Assembly: GCA_009781315.1 (NCBI GenBank)
Contig: WQYI01000001.1
Span: 62,001 to 126,000, forward strand
Direction of reading: 5' to 3'
DNA: 64,000 nucleotides
From: Candidatus Endomicrobium embiratermitis
GTDB lineage: Bacteria; Elusimicrobiota; Endomicrobiia; Endomicrobiales; Endomicrobiaceae
Shown here: positions 6,596-60,971 of the stretch, in pieces
Layout: each line of letters opens with the position of its first letter
How positions within the stretch are numbered: position 1 is the stretch's first letter
The notes under the pieces: generated by a model
The model's input: only the letters and a program-made list of their open reading frames with translations
Told to the model about the DNA's origin: nothing
The model's database searches: none
Translations under genes and position numbers: made by a program

Positions 6596-6621
6596 TTTTT
6601 TTTATCATATGATAAAAAAAA
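6596..6621. promoter_or_regulatory. Perfect 26-bp AT palindrome at the start of the first giant gene
   Basis: Eight T, then ATCAT, are followed by the exact complement ATGAT and eight A. The centre coincides with a potential ATG at 6609. The hairpin would bury that codon. An AGGGG follows at once and serves the ATG at 6630. Confidence 0.6.
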
Positions 6622-6629
6622 GGGGCCGT

Positions 6630-15600: not shown

Positions 15601-16049
15601 ATTTAAATGCCGGCGCCCAAAAGCGTTTTAATCCTGATATCATTTTGTTGTTTTCGCTGAGCGGTCTCAACGGAATTTTTAAAGACGAAGACAGGCAAAA
15701 AGCGATTGAAGATTTTGAGAAACATTCGTTAAACAGCTTCGGCGGAGTCAAAAACGGAAAAGCTTATCCGTATTATTTATATTATTACTCTTTGTTTATT
15801 CCGTATTTGCAGAAAAAATCTCTGCTTGAAACCCTAAGTTTTTATATTGAAGAAAATCTTTCATTGCCGGAGTTTTTTGCCAGAAAGGACGGATTTGGGG
15901 CAGGCGGTAATTTCAGGGACGCGGTCTCGGCGGCGTATTTTACAATGATGTTTGACGGTTTTGAGGATTTGACCGCTAAAATTAAGATTTCTAAAAAGGA
16001 ATTCGGTAAAATGTTTGAATCGGTAAAGGAAATATTAGTCGCGGCGTAA
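6630..16049 (+). CDS. Giant secreted/membrane multidomain protein (3139 aa), DLH-domain family, function unknown
   Basis: A signal peptide (MFFKTKKIISLFVSLSILTVLFF, then DAAAA) begins at the ATG at 6630, chosen over the ATG at 6609 because AGGGG precedes it and 6609 sits in a palindrome. Residues about 55-480 form a domain shared with the giant gene at 48408: INDLHSNPQVQQ (D68, H70), FTEGAPEG near 95 and MGGFHKSTADLF (H446). This layout resembles the ChaN/EreA/TraB-TIKI type, which is inference. A domain of about 270 aa occurs twice (starting near 598 and 1644), with SESG.G.S and FE-SLLN motifs. Hydrophobic stretches lie near 1151-1211 and 1549-1601. The rest is mostly predicted helix with no recognised catalytic motif; it ends LVAA. 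A strong terminator follows. Function is unknown. Confidence 0.8.
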   Translation: MFFKTKKIISLFVSLSILTVLFFDAAAAKNNPDYSIQKKSQSFEILDNFKVIGSSYKPDTPLVIFINDLHSNPQVQQSIYLALKRLDSDGVLSKIFTEGAPEGIVDVSKLIHSDYQKRKKIIDAFLSSGLASGAEVFAVDSGFKDIYGIENWDIYLENLKTAAETYNSGNGFLSGFKEILYANSGKEIRDAIRKISEIHDLSESGLSKNTDYGFLVRNYGEIDKYLKITDLKKRLNEKAAQKDIYSAFEFLKSNVSYKEFININDKYSKSGKEEFLSDFFLLLKNRFNNVLAERSALTELLYLNELKYASNPHTLIYQISLLKKNIIENIPLSYDKEITALYFFLELLDKYASLSVLEEELNELFKNKEIILKTCFKYLPEKDYAGVAKLLSDENILRYYENNIRRDQIFYENIKKNIVKEKINKKAVFNGKTYSCINVAVMGGFHKSTADLFKEDDISFVSLFPVIKESGKSIYKDIMRLSSSALAPPLLSAGVKNNEISALIDFWASFDDIYSKHAVQSVNNRLSEKNIPFKVFIDKEKQIKIKNIKSGKAFFTSIKTFFAKIFARKANVIKKDLTTRKIVAAEYLKTLDSLNGEMPDVVLICFQRAEDIAFYERILEKMRRETGLSNANFKFIHVSESGTGSSFINISEYINSLKSKNEFQSLKNKKWQDLKICAVNIDGLDTGITGRELPFEFNGRKITSFELSLLNGIRACQSFGQNGGLALMNPESVYIGNMIPEGEITIITSMESYGDILDYEMPWIISGESGVKKMYYKFDFDKIKDKLEKKGILERTRNLENGGFRQFETTTGNILFRFQDEFSYSSFFDKMSDLYGRIYSNKMPGGMPHYVDFIQHILIPLLRIKNGEDVLSYFSKMEIDKAFGEFYEEYSSFFDSSLNEEFKNILERISIKTYMQPYSFYASADKPVLPGDAFSKGLGLSVLGEAGNAKTQSNNDFIHSVESEYARLFREISDTKLQEKYYSEERRESVSLYRRIVLDSEKNAENIEKYLNANPGISQNDVKILENLKNLFVSVEYYALEYIRTLDSFENITILGGYIFPTSSIFERLKIMPFVRIIFGMQANFKKEKEKLRKQAYRLYTAGNAVNHSLYNYNSLLSEIDAYIKGKEYPDAKTYLGIEKQWGDRKAIQRILSLIIAAQSVISTVAIASSGGNAALSGSPLSIVGGLLFSLSTGIGLSIFLHRFMVFIGKRNSFYNAKIKKIFSLEGRYFKNLYYASDESEILKAMLADLSELEYLQEENESFTRVKIVIAVAKKRIEEYLNGKREKTLSDIKEDVSEVLSLISNEESFENLCLSLKTKNAYLPDRHTHEAEPSEFVKKSIEESSREYLEKWKNVLNSENFDADKFEIIRQYALQLVKITAFSENSFNNSKNKEQIIVIIQDFIHLYNDTFAKINGMPEDERQKILLEIKSFEETGKYADYYYKLLCHILSADLLNGYRISEKTPLFFLEKIKILPAVRNIMGINFGIHFSEKGFQKGLKGIIRSGNALIPGLYDEGALTAFSIKYLDSKRKPERFDIGINEFWKSRKMLTRMFPLLFFLGNVIANGLYMQPEKLFISFVSGVGIAIFMHWIPIIYSLIDMKIRKVIKKPKYDKKSVKIPPESLRDEIIGSKAENLRQIPYGKMPDIIFISSDIADENVGDIKRFMSDIIRNGNLRNLNIEYISESGSGDSVIDVFSYMSSEEFASKYPEIAAKGISQINAVIMHIDNSNYENIFDTVDFPISGAITTPFEISLLNAVGLIQNGDEGGNIALADPSYVYLGSLSRSGDVTLLGSDLDYAQIRSQEMPVFIGGEPGEQKPGESIAKKIYKTFDIEKISNIILRSSLENILKNHGEHKGQISAFSGFSSISLDAAKMKYFSEHMRELKEFADNYKGKKFKIDFFSHIMIPYVMLNNGENIDTYFAKMVSGINDRESRRQYYDFFYRIFEIHKKFHGDQDRILDVNIVRPPESLIGRADLENPYYSEIKTFLAELKNKSAPPSQERTATDVLQASTAAANNTANPVSLSTLMTNEISKRLSSKTKTLIFLTPNLNPDYIRHASASQKAGINSICAAIDGESVNSQASEIIINIPVEDSVISAKASISRNPDNSFIVKFSPLYGGVISDKERDIIKSILSGDGEIDMIRKKIFLSRGMLAFIKEAESDRKDLKGIESIITGSLRNNLLSVVSIDGSGAFAQPKLIDDRFYNDETLTKINFCGVYVNKNISGDFHRLSQDNKNALRLSEDTERFNIFTDNILNVGLMSALFSDASFLLSFNRRLTADIDAEEYKLIRLDKNVFYADPRQYISDLFELINGLSLKKSEGIRAEAVQNAALGKVTPSITLNTVSDIAALENLVDTRVINSVIVSNLFAQTENGSVIGNIFNPMLADLRREMAEIGYKDGGFLSILFEEKSDLTAWQSVNPRFYAAGILLDYLKNKSGGAHEFDRFKKSPFAVKGEKSFEYMTALILSGKKIITEDELAEIKFANAQKWDAALEQVKYMEFVVFKQFEEDAKKMKAKGITLIVKTNLMFLKDSVDFNEGFFEISNNGEAAVLPEYGLTPESFYVTQQLEYLRDVLSAGGFLITNIGSYHDKERISAYLRKKLQNGLNGKMILIFEDEETDAYPMAENTYILASKISENQNVILKTGVSDSVSVEELLEAVKNCGSDRVNIPLSFAGDAGMKFDALRADKKNILKSAYANSSQYYASGYKDAAKNGKLAAEAEKITVSDEEDSVYRITAKGILIFNALYSYIKGDDKKEKELLTYLSESGALFALARKHLRDLDAKSPLMRYIDNLELKNRSASPGERHLYNMQLMGFMNGIIHYKYGSEQSLFKAKVSAFADSFYIKNNFFNFIPSSQDTMSLYGLYLGSKDKINFVLKLREYFKHWETIYDKGNNAVALLWLAEQASLFMKDLDAAEKYEFASKIVSYFNNAVDKCAGTTGISAEYDALYLNALLVCRDFNRFAGNHLRISHLDDEIDKEKNAINERYLNAGAQKRFNPDIILLFSLSGLNGIFKDEDRQKAIEDFEKHSLNSFGGVKNGKAYPYYLYYYSLFIPYLQKKSLLETLSFYIEENLSLPEFFARKDGFGAGGNFRDAVSAAYFTMMFDGFEDLTAKIKISKKEFGKMFESVKEILVAA

Positions 16050-36207: not shown

Positions 36208-36262
36208 AGGAATTAAAAATCTTGTTGTCATTAGAATACAATTGAAGTATAAAGGAGATGTT

Positions 36263-39200
36263 ATGGAAACAACACCGGAAAAAGAAACAGAAGAATCATC
36301 TGTCGCGCCAAAATCTTTTAAGACACGTCTTATAATAATTTCGTGTTCCATAGCAGTTATACTTTTTGCAGCCGCGCTTTTTTATAATTTTAAAAAAGAG
36401 CCAGTATCTCCAGACGGGGCTCCGAGGCAAACTTATTCCTTTAACGCTGTAATTAACGCGCCGCCTGTTTCAAGGGTATCTGTGGATAAAGACGGTAATA
36501 CATCTGTTGAAAAGCCCGGTAATGTGACGATCCAGTTTAAAACTTCGAATTATGGAGCTCCCTCTCCGATAAATAAAGAATATGCTGCTGATCAGAATAA
36601 ACTGGACGCCCTTATTACCATTACGCCTGAACTGAGAGGTAAATGGAGCGTTCGCGAGTTTGGCGGTTACAGTACCACTTTAGATTTTACCCCTGAGAAA
36701 GAATGGACGGCCGCGCAAAAATATAAAATAAAACTGGATAAAGCGCTATTTAATTCAAATATAGAAATAGATAAACTTGACTTTGAATTTACAACCGCGC
36801 GTAATGATATTTTTATAGAAAACCTTGCGGTTTTCCCGTCACAACAAAAACGTCAGTTGGCGCTTAATGCGATCGTGCAATTTAACTATCCCGTTGACCG
36901 TGAGGCAGCAAAAAACGGCGTTAACCTTACAGTAGATAAAAAAACCGTTTCCCCGAAGATCAGTTTTGACCAGTACAACAGAGTAATGTTCCTGAATTAT
37001 GAGCCTGTCGCGCTTAAGTCGAAACCGCAGAATGTTGATCTTAGTATAAAGTTTGATTCCATGAGCGCTCAAAGATCTATGCAGATAGATTCTTCCGACA
37101 ATTTTTTTAATATAAAAAGAGTTGAGATCATACCTCCGTCTAAAATAGGCGCAAACTACAGCTTAAGCGTTGAGTCCACTGACATTCTTAACCCGGAAAC
37201 TCTTTTAAGCAATAATAAAATTAAAGCATGGGCTTTGCCATACGAAAACGGCAAGAACTGGCAAAATGTAAACATGGAAGATATGCGCGCTGCGCTTAAA
37301 GACGCCAAGGCGCTTAACCTTGAAGCAGTGCCCGGAAATACTGTCAATCCTTTCTTTAAAATAACTAACGATATAAACAGCACTGCCCGCGCGTATTATG
37401 TATATGTTTTGTTCAATCAGGGTATGGAGTCTGAAGGCGGTTTTTCAACCGATGAGAAAAAAGAATTTGTGGTGCCTATGGGAATACTGCCCAAAAGGCT
37501 GCAGATACTCGGCTCAGGCTCTATAATACCTTTAAGTTCTGAGCATATACTTAATTTTGTTTCGCAGGGGTTAAGTTCTGTTGACATAAAAGTATCCAGA
37601 ATTTTGCCCGGAAGAGTTAATCATCTTGTGTCACAGACCAGCGGAGATATCAGCAATCCGTATTTCGGCTCGAAAAGCAGATATTATGACTATGATGATG
37701 AGGAATACTACGACAATTTTACCACAAGCCAGTTTAATGAAAGCGACATAGCGAGTATTTTCAGCAAAAAGATCTCTCTTACCGATACGGGTATTAAGCC
37801 TAACTTTTTTACGCTTGATCTAAAAGAATATTTTAAACGCGGCGATTTAGGCATATTTTTGGTAGACGCAACTTCTTCAGGCGGCGTAAGCCAAAAAAGA
37901 TTAATTACCATCACAGACATCGGGCTGATATATAAAAAGGAAGCGGACGGAAAACTTAAACTGTTTGCACTTTCCATAGTTGACCAGCTGCCTCTTTACG
38001 GCGCCAAAGTCGAGCTTATATCGCGCAACGGCACGGTGCTTAAAACCGAGTATACGGGCAGCGACGGTATTGCGGTCTTTGAAGTGCCTTCGTATTTAGG
38101 CGCTGAAAGAAAACCTGTCGCGTTTGTGGTAAGTAAAGGCTCGGACTACGCGTTCATGCCCGTTGATAGAAGCGAGAGAGAGGTAAGTTTCTCGCGTTTT
38201 GACACAGCCGGAGCGGGCTACTTCCAAAATAGCAGCCTTGACGCTTTTATTTTTACCGACCGCGGCATATACCGCCCCGGCGATCCTGTTAATTTCGCAA
38301 TTATCTCAAAGAACCGGAACTGGACGTCCACAGCCGGTCTGCCTATAAAAGTCAGGGTAACGGACGCGCGCGACAAGAACGTGTTCGAAAAAACGGTTTC
38401 TTTAACTGCGGAAGGATTTAAAGATTTCAGCTTACAAACAACAGCTTCTTCGCCCACCGGCGAATACAAAATCAGCGTTTACGACGAAGGCGGCCAGTAT
38501 ATTTCAGGCGAAACGTTTAAGGTGGAAGAGTTTAAAGAAGATAAAATTAAAATAAACACAAGCATAGAAGGCGCTTCAAGAAAAGGCTGGCAGCCGGTTA
38601 CGGGCCTTACCGGGAAAGTAACGGTTAAGAACCTGTTCGGTACGCCTGCTGTCGGGAATACGGTAAATATGAAAATGCAGCTGCGCCCGGCAAAGTTTAA
38701 GTTCGCGCAGTATAAAGATTATTCGTTCTCCGACGTTATACGCAGTAAAGCGAACCTACGTTTTGAAGAGGTGACGTTTGGCGATGCGACTACCTCGGAA
38801 GACGGTTCGGTCACAACGGAATTAGACTTAAGCAGCTTTGAAAAGGGTACCTACAGCCTTAGTTTCTGGGCGGAAGCTTTTGAACAGGAAAGCGGGCACA
38901 GCGTTACGGCGATGTCTACAAGGCTTGTTTCACCCAACAAATATATTGTGGGATATCAAACGGAGGCGGACTTAAGCTATATTCCGCATAATTCCAAAAA
39001 AACCGTAAACTTCATAGCCATAGACCCTGACCTTAACAAAATAGAACCCGGTCCGTTCAAAATAAGAATTCTTAACCAGCAGTATGTGTCGGTGCCTGTA
39101 AGGAACAGAAATTCTTTCCGTTATCAGTCCGTATTGAGCGAGTCCCTTTTCAGCGTTGAAAATTTTAATATTAAAAAAGACGGTTCCGTTTTTACCATAC

Positions 39201-41935
39201 CCACTAAAAATCCCGGACAGTACGCGCTTGAGATGGTAAATAAAGAAGATGAAGTCGTTATGCGTCTTGAATTTTTCGTTTCGGGGAACGCTAATGTGGC
39301 CTACGACCTTGAGCGCAACGTTGAGCTTAGGCTTAATCTTGAAAAAGACACCATTGAACAGGGCGGCATATTGAAACTTAACATAACCGCGCCTTTTACC
39401 GGCACCGGGCTTATAACTATAGAAAAAGATAAAGTGTATGCGTACAAATGGTTTAAAACAACAACTAACAGTTCCGAGCAAAGTATAAAAGTGCCGGAAG
39501 AACTTACCGGCGGCGCGTATGTCAATGTTTCGTTCTTAAGAAGCATGTATTCCAAAGAACTTCTCGCAAGCCCTCTCAGTTACGCAGTGGCTCACTTTAA
39601 TATAAAGCCTGTGAAACATATGTCAGCCATCACTCTTGGAACCCCGGAACTTGTCAAGCCCGGCGACAGGATTGATATTTCTTACAAAACGTCAGTGCCG
39701 TCAAAAATTATAATCTACGGCGTTAACGAAGGTATTTTGCAGGTGGCAAAATATAAACTGCCCAGCCCCATAGCCCATTTTTTCAGAAAAAGCGCCTTAG
39801 GCGTAATAACATACCAGATGTGGGACCTCATTATGCCCGATAACAGACTTATAAAAGAAGTTTACGGAATAGGCGGCGACTACGAAGCCGCCAACGCTCT
39901 TTTGGAAGCCGGCTTAAATCCGTTTGCAAGAAAAACGGAAAAACCCGTGGTCTTTTGGTCAGGTATTTTGGAGGCTTCGCAGAACGCGAGCGTTTACTCT
40001 TATGACGTGCCTGATTATTTTAACGGGCAAATCCGTATTATGGCGGTCGCCGCGTCGCAAAGTACGGTTTCAAGCGCGGACAAAGAAGTATTGGTGCGAG
40101 CGCCTTTAATACTGTCCGCGGGAGGACCTGTAGCCGCCGCGCCCGGAGACACGTTTAACATAGGTTTAAGGGTATCAAATAATAAAGAGGGTACTAAAGA
40201 CGGCAAAGTCACCGTTAATATAAACGTATCCGACAATCTCTCGGTAATAGGCGCAAAAAAGCAAACCGTGAACGTGCCTTACGGCCAGGAAAAAACCGTT
40301 TATTTTAAAGTGCAGTCCGGAAATACGCTTGGCAACGCGACAATATCTTTTGACGCCGAGCTTGCAAATCCTAAAGAAACCGCTTCCCGTAAGATCACTC
40401 TAAGCGTGCGTCCTGCAAGCGCGATGCGTGTGACGATAAATAACGGTACAATAAAAGGCAGTAAAAAAGTAAAAGATTTTGACTCAAGAGAACTCTACGA
40501 CCAGTTTTCAAAAAATACAATTGCTCTCTCAGCCAACCCGCTTGTGGTTGCCGGGGGGCTTGGAGCATTCCTTGAAAAATTCCCGCACGGCTGCACGGAA
40601 CAGATCACAAGCCAGATATTTCCGACTATAGTTTTCTATAAAGCCTCGGGTAACGAAGGCGGCGCAAAAGAAGCTCTTACGCGCGTGATCGAAAAGCTTA
40701 AAGTCAGACAGCTGTCAAACGGCGGGTTTTCATTATGGGACGGCGGAAGTTATGTCAGCGAATATCCTTCTTTATACGCTTTCCACATGCTTACTGAAGC
40801 AGCTGAAATGGGCTACAATGTTCCCAAAGACATAAAGGACAGAGCTTTGTCATGGGCCAAAGAATATGCAGAACGTAATTCTTTCAACGGAAATGACATA
40901 AGCAACACAGCTTACGCGCATTACCTTATAGCCAAAAACGGCGTTGTTATGACTAACGCTCTTATGAACTTTGAAGAGTGGCTAAACAAAAATGACCCCA
41001 GATGGAAAGAAAGCGTTACCGGAGTTTACGTTGCCGCGGCTTACAAACTTCTTAAAAATGACGCAAAGGCTTTAAGCATAATAAAAGAGTACAAAGCCGA
41101 AGCTTCCGCTTACAGATATTATTATGATTATGACTCCAGCTTCTCAAGGAACGCCAAGTATATTTATATTATAGGCCTCTACTTTCCGGAACTTATGAAA
41201 GAACAAAAAGCTTCTGAAATAATAAAGAGCCTTCTGAGTGACATTAATGCCAAGCGTTATAATACGATGACTTCGGCGGCAGGGATGCTGGCTCTTTACT
41301 CTTATTCAAAAATAAACAACGTTAAAGACAGCGATATTGAAGTAAGCGCGAACGGACAAAAGTTAACCTTTGCCAAAAACAGCCTTGGAATGCTTGAGGC
41401 CTCGTTCGGACACGGCGTTAAAGAGTTTGACATTAAAGTAAAGGACAGTTCCGCAAATATCTATTATGTCATTACGCAGCAGGGCTTTGACAAAGGCGAA
41501 GTAAAACCGGCGGCAAACGGTATGCGTATAGCGCGTACTTATTACATATCGGGCAATGAGATGGACAGAGCGTTGGACAGAGTGCGTACTAAAGGCATAT
41601 TGGGAGACGAGATGGACGTTACCATAGAAACGCGTTCTTTAGACAGAACAATAACCAACGTGGCTATTACGGATATTCTGCCCGGCGGTTTTACCGTAGT
41701 GCCCGGTTCAATAAATTCCTCCGGAGGCGTTACGCTTGATTACTTTGACATAAGGGAAGACAGGCTTCTGTTATACGGCACCGTGAATTCTTATGACGGA
41801 AAATTTAGTTATAAAGTTAAATTTACCTCTGAGGGGACATTCAAAGTACCTGCCGTAACCGCCGCGCCGTTATATGATACGTCGATAAGCGCGGCCGGCG
41901 CGGAATCTACTTTCGTGATAGAAAGCAGAAATTAG
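36263..41935 (+). CDS. yfhM: Bacterial alpha-2-macroglobulin with thioester motif
   Basis: The 1890-aa protein starts at the ATG at 36263 (AAAGGAGATG before it). A membrane anchor (LIIISCSIAVILFAAALFY) near residues 20-40 replaces the usual lipoprotein signal. Macroglobulin-type beta domains follow, including TDRGIYRPGDPVNFAIISKNRNW. The thioester motif GCTEQ (Cys at about 1444) is intact; such proteins trap attacking proteases covalently in the periplasm. The alpha-alpha toroid (SNGGFSLWDGG) follows. It is paired with pbpC downstream, as in many Gram-negatives. Codon use differs from most neighbours: more CGT/CGC arginine codons. Confidence 0.95.
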   Translation: METTPEKETEESSVAPKSFKTRLIIISCSIAVILFAAALFYNFKKEPVSPDGAPRQTYSFNAVINAPPVSRVSVDKDGNTSVEKPGNVTIQFKTSNYGAPSPINKEYAADQNKLDALITITPELRGKWSVREFGGYSTTLDFTPEKEWTAAQKYKIKLDKALFNSNIEIDKLDFEFTTARNDIFIENLAVFPSQQKRQLALNAIVQFNYPVDREAAKNGVNLTVDKKTVSPKISFDQYNRVMFLNYEPVALKSKPQNVDLSIKFDSMSAQRSMQIDSSDNFFNIKRVEIIPPSKIGANYSLSVESTDILNPETLLSNNKIKAWALPYENGKNWQNVNMEDMRAALKDAKALNLEAVPGNTVNPFFKITNDINSTARAYYVYVLFNQGMESEGGFSTDEKKEFVVPMGILPKRLQILGSGSIIPLSSEHILNFVSQGLSSVDIKVSRILPGRVNHLVSQTSGDISNPYFGSKSRYYDYDDEEYYDNFTTSQFNESDIASIFSKKISLTDTGIKPNFFTLDLKEYFKRGDLGIFLVDATSSGGVSQKRLITITDIGLIYKKEADGKLKLFALSIVDQLPLYGAKVELISRNGTVLKTEYTGSDGIAVFEVPSYLGAERKPVAFVVSKGSDYAFMPVDRSEREVSFSRFDTAGAGYFQNSSLDAFIFTDRGIYRPGDPVNFAIISKNRNWTSTAGLPIKVRVTDARDKNVFEKTVSLTAEGFKDFSLQTTASSPTGEYKISVYDEGGQYISGETFKVEEFKEDKIKINTSIEGASRKGWQPVTGLTGKVTVKNLFGTPAVGNTVNMKMQLRPAKFKFAQYKDYSFSDVIRSKANLRFEEVTFGDATTSEDGSVTTELDLSSFEKGTYSLSFWAEAFEQESGHSVTAMSTRLVSPNKYIVGYQTEADLSYIPHNSKKTVNFIAIDPDLNKIEPGPFKIRILNQQYVSVPVRNRNSFRYQSVLSESLFSVENFNIKKDGSVFTIPTKNPGQYALEMVNKEDEVVMRLEFFVSGNANVAYDLERNVELRLNLEKDTIEQGGILKLNITAPFTGTGLITIEKDKVYAYKWFKTTTNSSEQSIKVPEELTGGAYVNVSFLRSMYSKELLASPLSYAVAHFNIKPVKHMSAITLGTPELVKPGDRIDISYKTSVPSKIIIYGVNEGILQVAKYKLPSPIAHFFRKSALGVITYQMWDLIMPDNRLIKEVYGIGGDYEAANALLEAGLNPFARKTEKPVVFWSGILEASQNASVYSYDVPDYFNGQIRIMAVAASQSTVSSADKEVLVRAPLILSAGGPVAAAPGDTFNIGLRVSNNKEGTKDGKVTVNINVSDNLSVIGAKKQTVNVPYGQEKTVYFKVQSGNTLGNATISFDAELANPKETASRKITLSVRPASAMRVTINNGTIKGSKKVKDFDSRELYDQFSKNTIALSANPLVVAGGLGAFLEKFPHGCTEQITSQIFPTIVFYKASGNEGGAKEALTRVIEKLKVRQLSNGGFSLWDGGSYVSEYPSLYAFHMLTEAAEMGYNVPKDIKDRALSWAKEYAERNSFNGNDISNTAYAHYLIAKNGVVMTNALMNFEEWLNKNDPRWKESVTGVYVAAAYKLLKNDAKALSIIKEYKAEASAYRYYYDYDSSFSRNAKYIYIIGLYFPELMKEQKASEIIKSLLSDINAKRYNTMTSAAGMLALYSYSKINNVKDSDIEVSANGQKLTFAKNSLGMLEASFGHGVKEFDIKVKDSSANIYYVITQQGFDKGEVKPAANGMRIARTYYISGNEMDRALDRVRTKGILGDEMDVTIETRSLDRTITNVAITDILPGGFTVVPGSINSSGGVTLDYFDIREDRLLLYGTVNSYDGKFSYKVKFTSEGTFKVPAVTAAPLYDTSISAAGAESTFVIESRN

Positions 41936-48407: not shown

Positions 48408-51400
48408 ATGATTAAAAAAAGTATTTCAATACTATTAGCCATAGCATTGATTGAGACTGCCGCTTTAGGCAGTTTGCCTCAATCTGTTTTTACGGCGGAT
48501 TCGGAAAATCCGTTATCGTTTTCAGACTTTGGCGTCGTAACCGGCGGAAAAGATTACGGTTCGCCCGGGAAAATAATAATAATACAGGATTTGCACTGTC
48601 ATCCGCAGGCTCAAAAAAACATAAGTTCCATAATAGATATTCTTGACGACAAATTTAAGATAAATAATATTTATCTCGAAGGAGCGCACGGTGATGTTGA
48701 TATTGGCTGGCTTACGGCGATAAAAGATAAAAAACTTTCGGATACTATTGCGCAAAGTTTATTGGAAAACGGGAAATTGACAGGCGCTGAACATTACGCG
48801 TATAAACATAATGCCGGATTGAAACTGAAAGGCATAGAAGATAAAGAAATACATATCGCCAACCTAAAAAGACTTTCTTTGATAACGGAATCCCAGCCGG
48901 AAATAACGGAAATATTATCAAATCTTTCCGTTTTTCTTAATAAAACTCAAAAACAAAATTACGGCGTTTTAAACCGTAAATTGGCTTTGCTTTATGATAA
49001 ACACCGGCTAGGTAAGATTAATTCAATGGATTATTATAAAAAACTTTTAAGATACGCGCGAAATACAAAAGACAATAAAAGCATAGTTAAAGATTTTAAC
49101 GTAAATATTGACGATTATCCCGAGATAGTAAATTTTATAAAGTCGTCCAAAAATTTAAAGAAAATAAACGTAAAGGCAGTTCAAAATCAACTTTCCCAGG
49201 TTTTAAATGAATTGAAAGCCAATGTCCCCTACGGCATGTATTCCGAATTTATTAACAAAACAAATTCGTTAAACAACACTGACGCGTTAGTAAAAGAAAT
49301 TGTGAAATTCAAAGACGGCGGATTTATAGATTTAAGAAAATATAAAGAACTTGATAATTTTATCAACGCTCAAAATTTAGCGTCCGGCGTTAACCCTATA
49401 AAACTTATTGACGCCGAAAGAAAACTTTTAAAGTCGCTGCAGATAAACTTTTCTTCAAGCGAAAAGGAAATGCTGACTGTAATACTTTCTGAATTATTCG
49501 ATCATTTTTGCGGTTATTATCAGGCAAAACTCAGCGTGGACGATTATAAATATATAAAAACATTCGGTATAGAAAATTATAAACATTATTGGGAACAAAC
49601 TACGGGTTTTGAAGATATATCATTGCTCAGTAAATACGACTCATTATTAAAAGAATATTATGAAATTAATATTAACAGAGATAAAATCTTCGCAAAACAC
49701 ATATTTAACGGAAGTAAGCCTGACGGGATAAATTTAATAGTTTGCGGCGGATTTCATACCTGCGGACTTATGGAAGAGTTAGAGGAAAAAGGCATAAGTT
49801 ATTTAGTAATTACCCCAAAAATTACTCAAGACGTTAAAATTGCCGATAAAATATATAAAGAAATGTTATTAAGCGGTTTTAAGACAGATTCTTTTGCATT
49901 GGCCTTGCAGATAATATCGCAGGGGGGAAGCCAGAAACAACTTGTCCAAATTTTAGAAACTATTTTGAGCGAGGAGCTAAAAAGAAATTCTAAATTGAAT
50001 GTGGAACAATTTATAAACGATACGGTAAATAAAATATGCGAAGTTGACGAAACTGAAATTAACAAACATATTGCAATGCCTTATAACCGTCCCGTAAACA
50101 ACGGGGTAAGAATGAACGGAGACGGCAGCATAGAGATAGAAATATATTTTGAAAATACCGGTAAAAAAGAAATTGTTGAAATAAATTCCGGCAAAAACAG
50201 CGACGCGTATATTCCCTATGCGTCGATTTACGGCATGAGATATGCAAAAAGCGCTCCGTTTTGGGAATGGTTATACATCTTGCCGTTTTCAATCCCGATA
50301 ATGCAAAGTAAAAAATTTAAGAGTTTTCTTAAAAGAACGTTTTTACCTGGCTTGGAAATAGACGATATAAACAAAGGCATACGGTATAATAAGAATCTTA
50401 AAATTTCCGATTCTATAGCGAGTTTATTGTTTATTGCGAGTTTTTTACTGCCTCCGGCTATTCCTTTCGCAATAATCTTATACTCGGTATTTAAATCGTT
50501 GTCTTTTGCTTCTTTACATATGAATAAGTTTAATAATAAAAGCGACGGAAAATACATGTCCGTTTTTTTGTCGTCGTTTATATCGTTGCTTCCTCTTAAT
50601 CTTATGTTAATAATATTAGGACCGGCAGGGCTCTTATTTGCCTTTACCGTCGGAATACCGCTGCAGATACTGCTGCATGAAATTTATAACGCATGGCTGG
50701 CGCCGGCAATAGCTGCTTCTTTGCATAGAAATTACGTATACAGAGACGACGAGCTTATTAAATATTTTGTTGATTTCAGAGAAGACATACGCAAGTCCGA
50801 TTTTAATAAAAGCGTATCTTCAAGAAGAATAATGAAGTTTTATACTATGCTCAAACTGTTTAATCTTAACAGAAATAAACAGACAATTAACGAAATATTG
50901 CCGGTTCTGTTTCAAATATCAAAATACTTGTCTCAAAAGAAGAAATCCGGAAATATAGCTCTTCGTATAAACGCGTCGATATCTTCGCAGCTTGAGAATA
51001 TGGATGAAAGCATTGCAAAATATATCGGCTCGGCGGAAAAAAAAGACGACTCATTTTGGTTTTTGTTTATATTGTCGCAAAAAAATGAAAAACACGTTCT
51101 TTCTAAAATAATTGAAAATAATAATCTTGACATAAGATACAGGCTTTATGCGTATTCTCTTTTGAGAAGTTCAAAATTCGATTTGAACGAAAGCAATAAA
51201 AAAGAGCTTACCGACAAAGCCGGACAACTTATACGTAATTTTGAATGGAAAAAAGATTTAGGCCACATATATAATGACACTATATTTTACAATGAAGAAT
51301 TACAGGCTTATGTTACGGCTGTTTATCTGATAATGGTTGCGGATCATCCCTCGTTTATAGGTAGAGAAAATCCGGCTATATTTAAAGCCATAACGGAAGC

Positions 51401-54400
51401 AAGGTTTGACGCCAAATACCGCAATGCGGACTCTTCTCTTTCTTTCGGAAAAGATTATTTTATGCAGGAAAGAAACCAGGCAATATTCCCCGAAATTATT
51501 GCCCATGAGCTTGCGCATATCCATCTTTTTAAATTAAAATTTTTACCGATAAAAAAAATCGCCTATTTATTATTTTTCCTGCCTTATAATAATAAATTGG
51601 TGCGAAAGATCGTGCTTAATCTTCAAAAATCCATGATTCACGAGTTGTATGCCGATGTTGCCGGATATTTGCTGGCTTCTTCTACCGGAAGAAACCCTGA
51701 AAAATTTTATGATTCCGGAATAGCTCCCTATCTGGGGAAGAATATCTCGGATTTTTCTGAAGAACCGGAAGAACATGCCGGAGCGAGAGTTCAGTTCAAC
51801 CAGCTTATAAATATGCTTAGACATGACCGCCGTGAAATCGATTATTATAAATTTTCCGAAATTTTTAACAGAAGGCTCAGAAGAAATATAAAAAAATCGG
51901 ATTTATATTTCAAAGAATTTTTCTTTGAGCTTTCGGAATCATACCTTACGCGCGAAGGATATAGGGCTGTAGGCGAGCCTGAAGATTTGAAGAATAACGA
52001 TATTATTACCACGCAGGAACTATTGGATTCTTTTCGCGCGTCGGTATTCGGCGACGAATATGCCGGAATTGCTCCGTTTTGGGAATGGGTTTATATGCTT
52101 CCCGGGGTGAGTTTCTTTGCGGAAAGCAGATTGTTTTCAAAAATTCTGTCTAAAACTTTATTGAAAGATAAAAGCGAAGAAGAAATAAATAATACGCTGA
52201 GAACAAACAGAATTGCAAAAACTTTAGATATAGCCGGAAGCGTTGTTTTAGGGGTTTGCGCTTTAAGCGGCTTGGGAATTGCCGGGCTTGCCGCGTTTAT
52301 GCTCACGAGAGCTATTATTTTCTCTTCGGTCCATAAAGGCTATGACTGGAAAGCGCATTGGAAAGATAAGGCTTTGATAAGCGTTTTGCTGTTTTTTGTT
52401 CCGTTTGCCGTTGTGTTTGCCTCTTTGCAGTTTTTCAGCCTTAATTTTATTCCCGTTATTGCCGCAGGATTCTCTTTAAATATTCTTTTACATTCTGTTT
52501 ATAATAAATTTATAGCTCCTGCCTTGTCTTTGAAAAAAGCTTCCGTATTTAAAAATCTATCCCAGGAAGAAAAACAGCAATTTGTCGCGGATATTATAAA
52601 ATTAAAATTGTCGTCTAAATTAAATATCGGCGTCGAAAATATTAATATTAACGCGGTAGATAATGATAGATACTATAAAAAGGAAACGTACGCGGAGTTT
52701 TTTTATAACGGCGTAAAGTTATATAAAGATGAAAGCGGCAAATTTATTTCGGATATTCCGAAAACGTTTTTGCTGTCTCTTTACGGACTTAGCGGCTCCG
52801 GACGCGAAACATATATTGAAACTTTCGTTAAAAATCTTATTGATATTTACAATATAGAACAGCAGGAAAGCAGCCATAAAAAAATAAGTGATTTTATAAA
52901 CGGTCTTGACGGCGGTATCGCGGATTTTGCAGTAACCGCATTGCTGGAGTTTGCGGCTTCTTCCGCAGTTACCGTTCCGTCGTTTTATCTTGTTGAAAAC
53001 ATGTCGAGAGAAATTTATACTTCCTCTTTCAATTTATCGCCCGTGAATTTCGACATGATGTATTTTATAAGCAAAATAGAAGAACAAATTAAAGAATTTG
53101 ACGACGATATAAAAAATTTAATACTTTTCCAGTGCATAGAATTTACCGGTTATGTTTTACAGAGCCAGACTTGGCTTTCTCCGGCGCTTTTTGACGGGCA
53201 ATATGGCTATATGCAGAATATTGTAAATGAAAGTTATGAACGAGAGCTGTCCAATACCAAGAGTTTTGACGGGGTTTTTAAAATAATGCTGTCTAATCAT
53301 AAAGAAGTACGTATGATAAAAACAAAAGAAGCGGCTCTTTTCGAGTATATAACAATAAAAAACAACGAAAGAGGTTCTTCGTTGATAATTCCCGACAGTA
53401 TCGTTTCTAATTTCAAAAATATCGATATTGCTTCTCTTGAAGATAAGGTTTATTCTTCTTATGATTTGGAAGAGAGAACCGCTTCGGTTATAAGGCAGAA
53501 AAGTTCACGCGGTATAACTGACAGATATCTCATCATAGACTGTTCCTCAACGGAAAATATCGCAGCAATTGCCGCGAAAATTGACGAATATAATAAAAGC
53601 GTTCCCGAAAAACTCAAAATCAAAGAAGTTATGCTTTATAATGCGGATTTAAAAGATTACGTTCTGTCGTATAAAGACTTTACTTTTTCAACGGCGTATG
53701 TATTCGATTTTTCAAAATTTGTATTTGATGATAAAAATAAAGAGAAGATATTAAGTTTATTCACGAATATTCCCGCGGTTTATTCCGGTTCGGATGATTT
53801 TGTTTTGAATTACGGCAGCAGACTTGATAATTTCACTAAACATTATTTATATATGCTTATGGATATAGATTTAATTCGTCACGGAACTCATCACGTAGAT
53901 ATGAAAATCGCAAAACGCATTGACAATGCCCCTGTGCAAATGAAAACCGCAAAGGAATATAAAGATTTATATGATAAGCTTATAGTTTCGCTTAAGAAAT
54001 ATAATTATTTTGACGGCGCCAAACAAATATTTTATAAATATGTGACGGAAACCGCTTTACGAAACCGCGGCAAACTTGACGCTTTTATCGGCGGCAATGA
54101 CATAACCGCGTCCGTTTTTAACGGTATTATTGACGAATACAGAACTCTTTTAAATTTTATGTTTTATTTTGAGTGGTCTGACCGTAAAGACATGTTTGAC
54201 TTTGTCTCGGAAGCGGAGAAAGACGCTTTGTCTGAAAAATTCAATGAATTTAGCTTAAAGCCTGAAAATTCTTACGCAATCCCGTTTGAGCAGGACTCAA
54301 TTTTAGTCGCAAGCGGAATGTCTGCGGTAAAAACAATAGCGGCTATGTTTGTGTCGGAAAATATTTCAAAAATTGCTTTCGGGAAAAATGTTTACTATGA

Positions 54401-55805
54401 GAACGCCGATATGTTTAATTCAATAAAAGCTTTCGCAAATCCCGTCAGGTTTTACGAATATAATACGCAGGAAACATTAAATCTTGACGCTGAAGCGATA
54501 TTTTTGGATTTAATTTCAAACTCCGTGCGTAAAGTAAATTTCGATACCGAAGATATTCCCGTTGCGGACATAAAGCGCATTATTTCCGAATTATCGAAAA
54601 AAGAATATAAAACGCCTTTTTATGTATGCATAGACAACAGCATGTATCCGTCTTTTCAGTTTGCCGATATTTTAAACGGAATAGACTTGCCGGATAATTT
54701 TTACATAATTGTCTACGGAAGTATGCAGAAAATGCATCAGAGGGGACTTGAAATAGTAACTTCGGGTTTTCTGACTTTAATATCCAACGGGCATAATCAA
54801 AATACAATTTTAAATAAATTGAAAGACGCTGTTAAGCTTACTTCTTCCGATATCGATACTTTCAGATATATCGTATTAAAAGAATTTATCGAAAATAATA
54901 ATCTTGATCGGCATTCAAGAAAATTAAACGACAATGCCGCCGCCGCGGCTCGGGCGTTAAAGTCGATATCTTCTCTGTTTGGAGACGCTTTTGAGGTATT
55001 GCATCCGTCATTATATTCCGGAGAACAAAGGGAAATATGGGAGAAAAACAGAAGTCCCGGCATTCCTTTTATTTTCATAAGGGATTTATCGTTTAAAAAA
55101 AACATAAGCGGTTTTCTTGAAACCCTTTATCCGATACTTATAAGGGCTTCTTTCAACCCGATGACAAGAGACAGTTACGGCTTTAATTCCCTTACTACGG
55201 TGCATTATGGCTTTAGTACGATTAGAATTAATGTTGGCATTAATGATGAATCGCGATTGCGGGAAATGCTTAATATTTTTTCCGAAGCAGCTTATGATTA
55301 TTTTATGCAAACGATATACAAAGATAGCCCCGCGAATGAAATGATAGAAAGAATATATGCGTATGCGCAAGATGTTTGGAGAAGCGAGAAATCGGATGAA
55401 TTAGCTTATAATTATCTTCTATCTTTAAAAGAGACGCATGCAATGTCTGAAATAAATGTTTTAAAAACTTTTAGTATATGCAATAAATTCGGAAAGCCTG
55501 TGCCTGAAATTATAAAATCAAAAGCTGCGGATATATTGAGTAAAGAACTTTCGCAATTTTTAAATGATGACGAACGCGCGGTTTATATTGAAGCTTTGGC
55601 ATATTCCGACAAGCCGAGAGGGGAAACTATTAAAGAATTAACCGATCTTTTTGTAAATGCTAATTCTTCGGACAGAGCTGCGGCGGCAAACGCTTTGACA
55701 ACAGTATTAGCCCGTCAGCCGGTTAGTTATAGATCCGGCAGTTTGGATCTTAATAATGCGGGCAGTTCTGGAAAAATGATTGCCAGTATGTTAGCCGCGG
55801 CATAA
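48408..55805 (+). CDS. Giant multidomain membrane/secreted protein (2465 aa) with DLH, HELAH and PLP-fold-like regions
   Basis: A signal-like start (SISILLAIALIETAALGSL) precedes a domain shared with the giant gene at 6630: IQDLHCHPQAQ (D61, H63), IYLEGAHG near 88 and CGGFHTCG (H450). Residues about 616-790 and 1222-1400 are two copies of a membrane module that begins PFWEW and has several helices. Between them are HELAH (1033-1037) and HELYADVAGY (E1079, D1083), an M48-like zinc-protease pattern. Residues about 1960-2290 resemble Cys/Met-metabolism PLP enzymes: ASGMSAVKTIA, YGSMQKMHQRG (K2108), RINVGIND. The end is helical (MIASMLAAA). The combined function is unknown; the domain names are inference from motifs. 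Confidence 0.8.
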   Translation: MIKKSISILLAIALIETAALGSLPQSVFTADSENPLSFSDFGVVTGGKDYGSPGKIIIIQDLHCHPQAQKNISSIIDILDDKFKINNIYLEGAHGDVDIGWLTAIKDKKLSDTIAQSLLENGKLTGAEHYAYKHNAGLKLKGIEDKEIHIANLKRLSLITESQPEITEILSNLSVFLNKTQKQNYGVLNRKLALLYDKHRLGKINSMDYYKKLLRYARNTKDNKSIVKDFNVNIDDYPEIVNFIKSSKNLKKINVKAVQNQLSQVLNELKANVPYGMYSEFINKTNSLNNTDALVKEIVKFKDGGFIDLRKYKELDNFINAQNLASGVNPIKLIDAERKLLKSLQINFSSSEKEMLTVILSELFDHFCGYYQAKLSVDDYKYIKTFGIENYKHYWEQTTGFEDISLLSKYDSLLKEYYEININRDKIFAKHIFNGSKPDGINLIVCGGFHTCGLMEELEEKGISYLVITPKITQDVKIADKIYKEMLLSGFKTDSFALALQIISQGGSQKQLVQILETILSEELKRNSKLNVEQFINDTVNKICEVDETEINKHIAMPYNRPVNNGVRMNGDGSIEIEIYFENTGKKEIVEINSGKNSDAYIPYASIYGMRYAKSAPFWEWLYILPFSIPIMQSKKFKSFLKRTFLPGLEIDDINKGIRYNKNLKISDSIASLLFIASFLLPPAIPFAIILYSVFKSLSFASLHMNKFNNKSDGKYMSVFLSSFISLLPLNLMLIILGPAGLLFAFTVGIPLQILLHEIYNAWLAPAIAASLHRNYVYRDDELIKYFVDFREDIRKSDFNKSVSSRRIMKFYTMLKLFNLNRNKQTINEILPVLFQISKYLSQKKKSGNIALRINASISSQLENMDESIAKYIGSAEKKDDSFWFLFILSQKNEKHVLSKIIENNNLDIRYRLYAYSLLRSSKFDLNESNKKELTDKAGQLIRNFEWKKDLGHIYNDTIFYNEELQAYVTAVYLIMVADHPSFIGRENPAIFKAITEARFDAKYRNADSSLSFGKDYFMQERNQAIFPEIIAHELAHIHLFKLKFLPIKKIAYLLFFLPYNNKLVRKIVLNLQKSMIHELYADVAGYLLASSTGRNPEKFYDSGIAPYLGKNISDFSEEPEEHAGARVQFNQLINMLRHDRREIDYYKFSEIFNRRLRRNIKKSDLYFKEFFFELSESYLTREGYRAVGEPEDLKNNDIITTQELLDSFRASVFGDEYAGIAPFWEWVYMLPGVSFFAESRLFSKILSKTLLKDKSEEEINNTLRTNRIAKTLDIAGSVVLGVCALSGLGIAGLAAFMLTRAIIFSSVHKGYDWKAHWKDKALISVLLFFVPFAVVFASLQFFSLNFIPVIAAGFSLNILLHSVYNKFIAPALSLKKASVFKNLSQEEKQQFVADIIKLKLSSKLNIGVENININAVDNDRYYKKETYAEFFYNGVKLYKDESGKFISDIPKTFLLSLYGLSGSGRETYIETFVKNLIDIYNIEQQESSHKKISDFINGLDGGIADFAVTALLEFAASSAVTVPSFYLVENMSREIYTSSFNLSPVNFDMMYFISKIEEQIKEFDDDIKNLILFQCIEFTGYVLQSQTWLSPALFDGQYGYMQNIVNESYERELSNTKSFDGVFKIMLSNHKEVRMIKTKEAALFEYITIKNNERGSSLIIPDSIVSNFKNIDIASLEDKVYSSYDLEERTASVIRQKSSRGITDRYLIIDCSSTENIAAIAAKIDEYNKSVPEKLKIKEVMLYNADLKDYVLSYKDFTFSTAYVFDFSKFVFDDKNKEKILSLFTNIPAVYSGSDDFVLNYGSRLDNFTKHYLYMLMDIDLIRHGTHHVDMKIAKRIDNAPVQMKTAKEYKDLYDKLIVSLKKYNYFDGAKQIFYKYVTETALRNRGKLDAFIGGNDITASVFNGIIDEYRTLLNFMFYFEWSDRKDMFDFVSEAEKDALSEKFNEFSLKPENSYAIPFEQDSILVASGMSAVKTIAAMFVSENISKIAFGKNVYYENADMFNSIKAFANPVRFYEYNTQETLNLDAEAIFLDLISNSVRKVNFDTEDIPVADIKRIISELSKKEYKTPFYVCIDNSMYPSFQFADILNGIDLPDNFYIIVYGSMQKMHQRGLEIVTSGFLTLISNGHNQNTILNKLKDAVKLTSSDIDTFRYIVLKEFIENNNLDRHSRKLNDNAAAAARALKSISSLFGDAFEVLHPSLYSGEQREIWEKNRSPGIPFIFIRDLSFKKNISGFLETLYPILIRASFNPMTRDSYGFNSLTTVHYGFSTIRINVGINDESRLREMLNIFSEAAYDYFMQTIYKDSPANEMIERIYAYAQDVWRSEKSDELAYNYLLSLKETHAMSEINVLKTFSICNKFGKPVPEIIKSKAADILSKELSQFLNDDERAVYIEALAYSDKPRGETIKELTDLFVNANSSDRAAAANALTTVLARQPVSYRSGSLDLNNAGSSGKMIASMLAAA

Positions 55806-59497: not shown

Positions 59498-60085
59498 ATG
59501 TCAATCGTGTTAACGGCTTCTGTTTTTGTAATCGCAATCGTTTCAATTCTGATGCTTATTGCTCTTATAATTTTTGTCGTCGGCATTTATAATTCCCTTA
59601 TAAGCCTGAAAATTAATATTGACAGAGCTACGTCTAATATTGACGTTTTGGCTAAACAGAGATTTGACGAAATACCTAATCTTGTCAAAGTATGTAATGA
59701 ATATATGAGTTATGAAAAGGAAGCTTTGCAAAAAATTATAGAAGCCAGAAATATTTTTTTAAAAGCTTCCGACAGTCATGAGACGGTAAACGCCGATTTA
59801 GGGCTTGAGTCCGCGCTGAAATCCTTATATGCCGTTGCGGAAAGTTATCCGGAATTAAAGGCTAATGAGCAGTTTTTAAATCTTCAAAAAAGAATTACCG
59901 CGCTTGAAAATAATATTGCCGCAAGACGCGAATTTTATAATGCCTCGGTAGCTTTATATAATGCCAGAATTTACCAGATTCCCGACATTATTATCGCCAG
60001 ATTTCTGAATTTGAAAGAAAAGCCCATGTTCCGTACCGAAAATACCGAAGAGCTTAAACCCGTCAAAGCCGAAATAAAATATTAG
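59498..60085 (+). CDS. lemA: LemA-family membrane protein
   Basis: The 195-aa protein has a membrane helix at about 6-30, then the family core VGIYNSLISLKINIDRATSNIDVLAKQR and FDEIPNLVKVCNEYMSYEKEALQKIIEAR. LYAVAESYPELKANEQFLNLQKRI near 108 and the ARREFYNASVALYNARI helix near 145 are also typical. LemA proteins present a short outer N-terminus and a helical bundle; the role is poorly understood. AAGGGGG precedes the ATG. It is followed by the GIDE-domain gene, a common pairing. Confidence 0.93.
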   Translation: MSIVLTASVFVIAIVSILMLIALIIFVVGIYNSLISLKINIDRATSNIDVLAKQRFDEIPNLVKVCNEYMSYEKEALQKIIEARNIFLKASDSHETVNADLGLESALKSLYAVAESYPELKANEQFLNLQKRITALENNIAARREFYNASVALYNARIYQIPDIIIARFLNLKEKPMFRTENTEELKPVKAEIKY

Positions 60086-60105
60086 AGCCTGTTAACAGGC
60101 TCTAA
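60082..60105. repeat. Perfect 24-bp palindrome after lemA
   Basis: TTAGAGCCTGTT is followed by its exact complement, starting in the lemA stop codon and ending 14 bases before the next start. The same arms occur at 41934-41964 with a 10-base insert in the middle. Confidence 0.85.
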
Positions 60106-60119
60106 TACGGAGAATTTTC

Positions 60120-60971
60120 TTGAAAAACGCGATTGCAATTATGTCATTTTCGCTGCTTTTGATACTTGCTATTTTTGCGAGCGGAGCGTTTAATCTTCCG
60201 CGATGGCTTCCTGATATTGTTCTGCTGGCAGCCGGCATGTATACATACGTTGAAAGTTTCATGAAATACAAAAGATTCAGGCGCGTAAGAGATACTGCTA
60301 CGTCTCAAATCGATTCTATCCCTATGGGATTTGTCGAAGTATACGGAAGAGCGAAAAAATTTCCGGGAATGAATGAGATTTATTATTACTTATCGCATGG
60401 GACCAGCTATGACTGGTTTTCGAATTTAGGATTTTTTCCAAAAAGCAGCCTTACAGCGAAACCGTTTTTGATTGAGGATGAAACCGGAAAAGTTTTTGTG
60501 GACCCTTTAAACGCCGAAATGATATTAAATTATAAAACGCGGTTTGATTATGACACTATTTACAGGGAAACGGAAATAAAGGAAGGAGATTATGTGTATT
60601 GCCTCGGCACGGTGCACAGAAAAGACGTGGTAGACATTGCCGATGAAATCAATAAAGCCATTAAAGCGGCAAAGCAGGACAAAGAAATGATGAAGCGTTT
60701 TGACACAAATAAGGACGGTAAAATAAGCGAGGAAGAATGGAACGAAGCGAGAAAATATATTGAAAACGAAGTCATAAACAAGAATTTACATAAGACCGAT
60801 ATATATATTTCGACTATAGGTAGGAGTAAGGAAGACTCGATTTTTATAATATCCGATAGAAGCGAAAAAGAACTTACAAAAAGATTTTTTATTCAGTATG
60901 TCGTAACTCTTGCTATCGGAATAAGCGTAACAGTGTTTGTGTTAATGCGCGTTCTAATGCGTGCGCTTTGA
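60120..60971 (+). CDS. GIDE (BAM)-domain membrane protein with an EF-hand
   Basis: The 283-aa protein starts at a TTG (ACGGAG before it). Two membrane helices near the start, the GIDE-type domain (VEVYGRAKKFPG near residue 72, FLIEDETGKVFVDPLNAEM near 117, VYCLGTVHRK near 158) and a final helix make the family pattern seen beside LemA. An EF-hand loop, DTNKDGKISEEE (near residues 198-209), has the calcium-ligand positions 1, 3, 5, 9 and 12. The prokaryotic function is unknown; no RING finger is present. The gene directly follows lemA. Confidence 0.75.
   Translation: MKNAIAIMSFSLLLILAIFASGAFNLPRWLPDIVLLAAGMYTYVESFMKYKRFRRVRDTATSQIDSIPMGFVEVYGRAKKFPGMNEIYYYLSHGTSYDWFSNLGFFPKSSLTAKPFLIEDETGKVFVDPLNAEMILNYKTRFDYDTIYRETEIKEGDYVYCLGTVHRKDVVDIADEINKAIKAAKQDKEMMKRFDTNKDGKISEEEWNEARKYIENEVINKNLHKTDIYISTIGRSKEDSIFIISDRSEKELTKRFFIQYVVTLAIGISVTVFVLMRVLMRAL

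Follow-up and report, generated by a model that had tools for sequence, protein, structure and literature searches.

The closest described relatives of the system analysed here are found among MAPL/MUL1/MULAN, the LemA family and the calmodulin-type EF-hand proteins. The evolution of the BAM/GIDE domain is treated in PMC4457424, which places the BAM domain of human MAPL on the side of the mitochondrial intermembrane space and states that no prokaryotic sequence of its set carries a C-terminal RING; EF-hand, LemA and calcium do not occur in its main text. For the LemA family, PMC4902198 proposes that the LemA protein MamQ acts as a hub gathering membrane proteins. Within the open-licence literature we found no account of an EF-hand in a GIDE–LemA pair, in agreement with the initial annotation, which had called calcium control of this pair undescribed; domain databases may list the architecture uncommented.

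We analysed a window of 64,000 nucleotides from Candidatus Endomicrobium embiratermitis, with the features of the lemA–GIDE region on the plus strand. The gene of interest (60120..60971) starts with TTG and encodes a GIDE/BAM-type membrane protein of 283 residues that contains an EF-hand; its closest named relative, at 70% identity, is in the assembly of 'Candidatus Endomicrobium macrotermitis'. It follows lemA (59498..60085), the product of which matched PF04011 with 144.5 bits (cut-off 26.2) in a domain located after one N-terminal membrane helix (residues 9–27 by hydropathy). The end of lemA and the start of the GIDE gene are 34 bases apart, and a likely ribosome-binding site GGAG (60109..60112) was recognized by reading the sequence, 7 bases 5' of the TTG start. 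A perfect hairpin of 12 bp with a 4-base loop (60080..60107; −18.7 kcal/mol, z −7.4) covers the lemA stop codon and the gap between the genes. It is the only copy in the genome when up to 2 mismatches are allowed, has no T run on its 3' side and has no counterpart at the lemA–GIDE junction of the relative G045; it is possibly an element for mRNA processing or stability. The gene 3' of the GIDE gene is presumably guanylate-kinase-like. Elsewhere in the window there are two very long ORFs with no Pfam match at 1e-4 (6609–16049, 3146 aa, and 48408–55805, 2465 aa) and a gene for a bacterial alpha-2-macroglobulin-like protein of 1897 aa (36242–41935).

The AlphaFold2 model of the window protein, built with 30 sequences, had a mean pLDDT of 89.4; block means were 88–92 across the EF-hand (residues 181–220), and values of 60–76 occurred at the joints of the inserted module. 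The GIDE domain is positioned between two membrane helices on its N-terminal side and one on its C-terminal side. The first helix (residues 2–23, 60123..60188) was assigned from the model and hydropathy, the second (residues 30–58, 60207..60293), with the basic juxtamembrane end KYKRFRRVR, from the model and charges, and the C-terminal one (residues 249–282, 60864..60965) again from the model and hydropathy. According to the predicted structure and VIA-align, the domain between them is OB-fold-like and comes in two parts, residues 60–167 (60297..60620) and the last strands, residues 231–247 (60810..60860). VIA-align of residues 60–247 ranked 7qhs_F (Z 9.8, rmsd 2.1 over 78 residues) ahead of 3dm3_A (Z 9.6), best Z values of 7–8 being common for this tool; many of the top entries we take to be OB proteins. 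Foldseek on the same model returned nothing at E ≤ 0.001, its weak hits being mostly antibodies among the 50 listed. The window protein scored 21.9 bits against the GIDE profile PF12483, below the cut-off of 23.6 and split in two pieces. The orthologues of genomes G054, G053 and G047 passed it with 34.5, 30 and 29.8 bits, respectively, and 29 of the 30 members of alignment A2 matched PF12483 at E ≤ 0.01; the window protein aligns with them along its length. NCBIfam gave weak matches, the window protein scoring 16.6 bits where the cut-off is 120. The protein ends after its last membrane helix and gave no Pfam match to a RING domain, which rules out the E3 ligase identity that the name of the Pfam family would imply.

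The two parts of the domain are separated by a module of about 60 residues (168–230, 60621..60809), delimited from predicted structures and the lengths between anchor columns. In the model this module consists of helices 173–186, 188–192 and 204–223, of which the last two flank the EF-hand loop, and it is located between strands 158–167 and 231–234. For comparison, the EF-less homologue L085 of the Bacteroidota sample was modelled from 8 sequences (pLDDT 87.5); at the equivalent position, a turn of two residues connects its strands 153–163 and 166–170. The spacing of the anchor columns was 77–92 residues in EF-type proteins (median 83, 37 rows of the alignment) and had a median of 28.5 in the 44 EF-less rows, with exceptions in L031–L033 (89) and in a tandem copy, L042 (67). 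The longer spacing, together with the two-residue turn of L085, indicates that in the predicted fold the EF-hand module has been inserted where the GIDE domain otherwise makes a hairpin turn.

An EF-hand loop comprises 12 residues, with ligands at positions 1, 3, 5, 7 (through the backbone), 9 and 12, a glycine at position 6 and an aliphatic residue at position 8. The loop of the window protein, DTNKDGKISEEE (60702..60737, residues 195–206), reads D-T-N-K-D-G-K-I-S-E-E-E and agrees with this definition; we infer from it a putative Ca2+ site. The protein exceeded the cut-offs of two Pfam EF-hand families, with 27.7 bits for EF-hand_1 (PF00036, cut-off 25.4) and 26.1 bits for EF-hand_5 (cut-off 25.9). 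The initial annotation, whose coordinates 60120–60971 are correct and span the whole gene, had recognized DTNKDGKISEEE as an EF-hand loop and had placed it within the GIDE domain and before the last membrane helix; the ligand pattern and the Pfam scores bear out the first statement, and the predicted structure the second. We also considered a chance match. Read in all six frames, the window contains the EF pattern a single time, and 60 second-order Markov resamples of the window contained it 0.05 times on average and at most once. In a search of the whole genome, PF00036 matched 5 times at E ≤ 1, and the match of the window protein alone exceeded the cut-off. The resamples and the genome search together rule out chance.

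In the reading to which we give an even chance, LemA and the GIDE protein form a membrane complex, the loop is a Ca2+ site of its GIDE subunit that lies in the cytoplasm, and this site controls contacts of that subunit. The gene pair would encode a two-protein inner-membrane module, in which LemA would be a helical hub anchored in the membrane and the GIDE protein, anchored as well, would expose its OB-fold domain to the cytoplasm. Analogy with MamQ suggests that the window LemA may act as such a hub. When cytoplasmic Ca2+ rises, it would be bound by the helix-loop-helix in the GIDE hairpin turn; the bound state would stiffen or turn the helical hairpin, altering its rigidity or angle, and would thereby change the contact of the GIDE domain with LemA, which would be a direct one, or with a client. 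Judged from sequence, calcium control of the LemA/GIDE pair is plausible.

The main rival is a structural rather than a sensing site. A permanently bound Ca2+ (or Mg2+) would then sense nothing but keep the inserted hairpin in the form needed for a protein contact, for instance with LemA or another GIDE chain; we regard this as possible if rather doubtful. Pfam detected a single EF-hand stretch in the window protein, and the usual second EF-hand is absent. EF-hands mostly operate as pairs, although pairing is common rather than required, and a partner site for this one would need dimerisation of the GIDE protein. A single canonical loop suits a structural role, and so do the long helices 173–186 and 204–223, which would be appropriate for a contact; moreover, L031–L033 keep a comparably long insert, with 89 residues separating the anchor columns, but not the ligands, as if its shape were otherwise maintained. 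On the other hand, free Ca2+ in the cytoplasm is low, so a permanently occupied cytoplasmic site would need high affinity. As to the metal, glutamate at loop position 12 suits Ca2+ better than Mg2+.

Sensing of cytoplasmic Ca2+ also depends on the side of the membrane on which the domain lies. Basic residues flanking a membrane helix mark the cytoplasmic side (the positive-inside rule). The mean number of lysines and arginines was 5.5 in the 26 residues before the domain, 2.8 in the 15 residues after it and 0.8 past the last helix; this count is crude, covering the 31 of 37 rows with an anchor match, taking a different hydrophobic stretch as the last helix in L036 and L040, and giving a lowered value of 0.8 since many of the proteins end shortly after that helix. 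By the positive-inside rule, the basic flanks would put the domain in the cytoplasm. In each of three GIDE–LemA fusion proteins two hydrophobic helices are found between GIDE and LemA, which would place both domains on one side of the membrane. Charge pattern and fusions thus suggest a cytoplasmic GIDE domain. If the domain were instead periplasmic, the EF-hand would read external Ca2+, much as human MAPL exposes its BAM domain to the intermembrane space according to the topology described in PMC4457424. We consider this quite unlikely, given the charge pattern in those 31 rows; in addition, the MAPL domain is located between two membrane helices, whereas here two helices precede the domain and one follows it, and the sides need not match.

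The loop was not restricted to the window species. A GIDE gene was present in 8 of the 76 genomes of the family, and the eight homologues, picked by whole-protein similarity, all carry the full loop at the same site, which rules out a one-off insertion. The initial annotation would have been contradicted by loss or degeneration of the loop in all close homologues, and had proposed looking for it in other GIDE proteins beside lemA. The refuting outcome did not occur: besides the eight family homologues, 37 members of a wider branch, which comprises 43 GIDE proteins of Elusimicrobiota and Pseudomonadota, were found to carry the loop, 36 with the full EF pattern and one without the glycine; the remaining 6 have no loop. 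Across the phylum, 58 of 340 Elusimicrobiota genomes gave a GIDE-like match, and one match or more of every such genome was inspected: 26 have the full pattern, 1 the glycine-less loop (L038) and 29 only loop-less proteins, while L095 and L112, from the other 2, are fragments cut short by the end of a contig or frame. In the Pseudomonadota sample 33 of 398 genomes matched; after 20 that matched only around the EF loop had been set aside, 13 had a GIDE protein, and 10 of these 13 had the loop. The Bacteroidota sample, taken around a Bacteroidales genome, gave 9 matches in 296 genomes and, after removal of L091, which we take to be a DsbD-like protein, 8 genomes with a GIDE protein, none with the loop. 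These counts are to be read with the A1 and A2 profiles in mind, which contain the EF loop and favour EF-type proteins in searches.

In the 37 aligned loops, D1, N/D3, D/N5, I/L/V8 and E12 were found in all 37 and G6 in 36, and positions 2, 4, 7, 10 and 11 had entropies of 2.2–3.2 bits. This conservation is partly circular, because rows were labelled EF-type by the pattern itself. Two observations are not: all eight family members have the full loop, and serine at positions 3 and 5 and aspartate at position 12, which the pattern also permitted, occurred in none of the 37 loops. The window gene and its closest relative differ in loop residues at positions 2 and 4 alone. At E ≤ 0.01, EF-hand_5 matched 25 and EF-hand_1 20 of the 30 members of alignment A2; weaker cases are L038, which has lost G6, L127, whose EF-hand matches all stay below cut-off, and L134, which has none at E ≤ 0.01. 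Overall, the pattern of conservation fits selection for metal binding. That the loop is a mere helix-turn-helix linker with its metal binding lost would accommodate the EF-less members adjoining lemA, but this is highly improbable when eight of eight family homologues and distant rows of Pseudomonadota keep the ligand positions amid drift at the others. As far as sequences tell, a GIDE subfamily linked to LemA and present in two phyla carries the EF-hand as a regular trait. Two loci have tandem GIDE genes. In L042/L094 these follow lemA, the second lacking the EF loop and its neighbour having it; in L004/L012, at a contig start, there is an upstream tandem GIDE copy, which the contig boundary truncates just past the expected position of the EF loop.

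In a tree of 81 rows built without the insert, the 37 EF-type and 6 EF-less rows of the wider branch formed one branch of 43 with support 81. The EF label needed 5 changes on this tree, compared with about 27 when shuffled, and the strongly supported branches alone require at least 2. This is compatible with one gain of the EF-hand and later losses. The tree excluded domains shorter than 150 residues (L095, L112, L113 and the first piece of L004) and the duplicate L094, entered L135 by its second GIDE domain only and counted L038, with its degenerate loop, as EF-type. Both this and the LemA tree are quick searches with modest supports. L034, from Elusimicrobiota, clustered with Pseudomonadota rows in both (support 96 for GIDE and 99 for LemA), as if its GIDE–lemA pair had been transferred together. 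GIDE and LemA distances of 35 EF rows were correlated in a Mantel test (r 0.886, reached in 0 of 999 shuffles), a result that may reflect pairing or a common history of the species alike; restricted to the 10 Pseudomonadota rows, the test gave r 0.946, reached in 1 of 999 shuffles, the largest of which gave 0.952.

The partnership with lemA was constant. A lemA neighbour on the same strand was found in the fetched flank of 35 of the 37 EF-type genes; of the other two, L023 (same locus as L191) has lemA one gene off, and L004 is located where its contig begins, preceded by a second copy that is truncated. Among the EF-less rows, lemA was near or fused in at least 17 of 44, a lower bound since neighbours were sought with the window LemA as query in limited flanks, some of them ended by the contig. 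Within the family, a lemA co-orthologue (56–100% identity, E ≤ 1.9e-44) was present in 7 of 75 genomes. All 7 belong to the 8 that have the GIDE gene, and the 67 genomes lacking that gene have no such lemA; in the eighth, G051, the GIDE gene is located at a contig end. Other lemA matches in the family did not exceed 43% identity. Lack of the EF-hand was observed in the lemA-adjacent GIDE proteins L031–L033, L048, L050, L136 and L137 and in 6 of the Bacteroidota sample, and also in the three fusions. Two of these, from Elusimicrobiota, combine Sel1 repeats, GIDE and LemA (L099, 260–2578, with Sel1 slightly below cut-off, and L107, 164–2230); the third, from the Pseudomonadota sample (L135, 799–3075), has 759 residues with two GIDE stretches joined to LemA. 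The existence of such pairs and fusions implies that Ca2+ sensing is not indispensable for the pair to work. The insert of the LemA-linked L031–L033 is about as long as that of EF-type proteins but has no Ca2+ ligands.

A larger conserved operon around the pair was not found among the 18 ORFs scanned at 14 of 19 loci, not all of which are immediate neighbours; these 18, and two ORFs beside the second lemA of the window genome, were taken from 164 picked ORFs. The outer neighbours differ in kind (for example gyrB, a ribonuclease, fumarase and alaS), and for 3 of the 18 no family matched at 1e-5. The shared exception is an EAL-GGDEF gene, common to two Pseudomonadota loci (L186 and L188). A search of the EF-GIDE proteins against plasmids gave no match. 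On plasmids of Thiodictyon and Methylomagnum (L092, L093), lemA is followed by two TPM-domain genes, another partner of LemA.

With a conserved candidate Ca2+ site, both the GIDE and the LemA family gain a concrete ligand and straightforward mutants of the loop, and calcium becomes a cue that can be tested for a pair of membrane protein genes about which little is understood. Few cases of bacterial EF-hands that may read cytoplasmic Ca2+ are known, and this one, if true, would be a membrane-bound addition to them. The broadest form of the proposal is that the bacterial relatives of MAPL include a wide lineage with a built-in cytoplasmic Ca2+ sensor acting through a LemA hub, that is, a Ca2+-gated switch for membrane remodelling or the organisation of membrane proteins, conserved across phyla; we consider it unlikely.

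The window protein resembles MAPL/MUL1/MULAN in its membrane-flanked GIDE/BAM domain and its similarity to PF12483, and differs in having no RING and in having an EF-hand insert and a lemA partner. With calmodulin and calcium-binding protein 1 it shares the 12-residue loop and the helix that follows. In a search of solved structures with the family profile, calcium-binding protein 1 was at the top (8.7e-07), along with calmodulins, among the best 60 of 442 matches. Calmodulin-type EF-hands form a paired, free-standing lobe, however, whereas that of the window protein is single and inserted in a domain of a membrane protein. The partner gene encodes a LemA protein (PF04011), as in the family that includes the magnetosome protein MamQ, but is paired with GIDE, while the second lemA of the genome adjoins an M48 peptidase gene and the plasmid lemA genes adjoin those for TPM-domain proteins. 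Closest in composition are the EF-less GIDE–LemA pairs and fusions, which have the identical two domains, adjacent or fused; they differ in lacking the EF-hand, in place of which a short turn joins the strands in the modelled L085.
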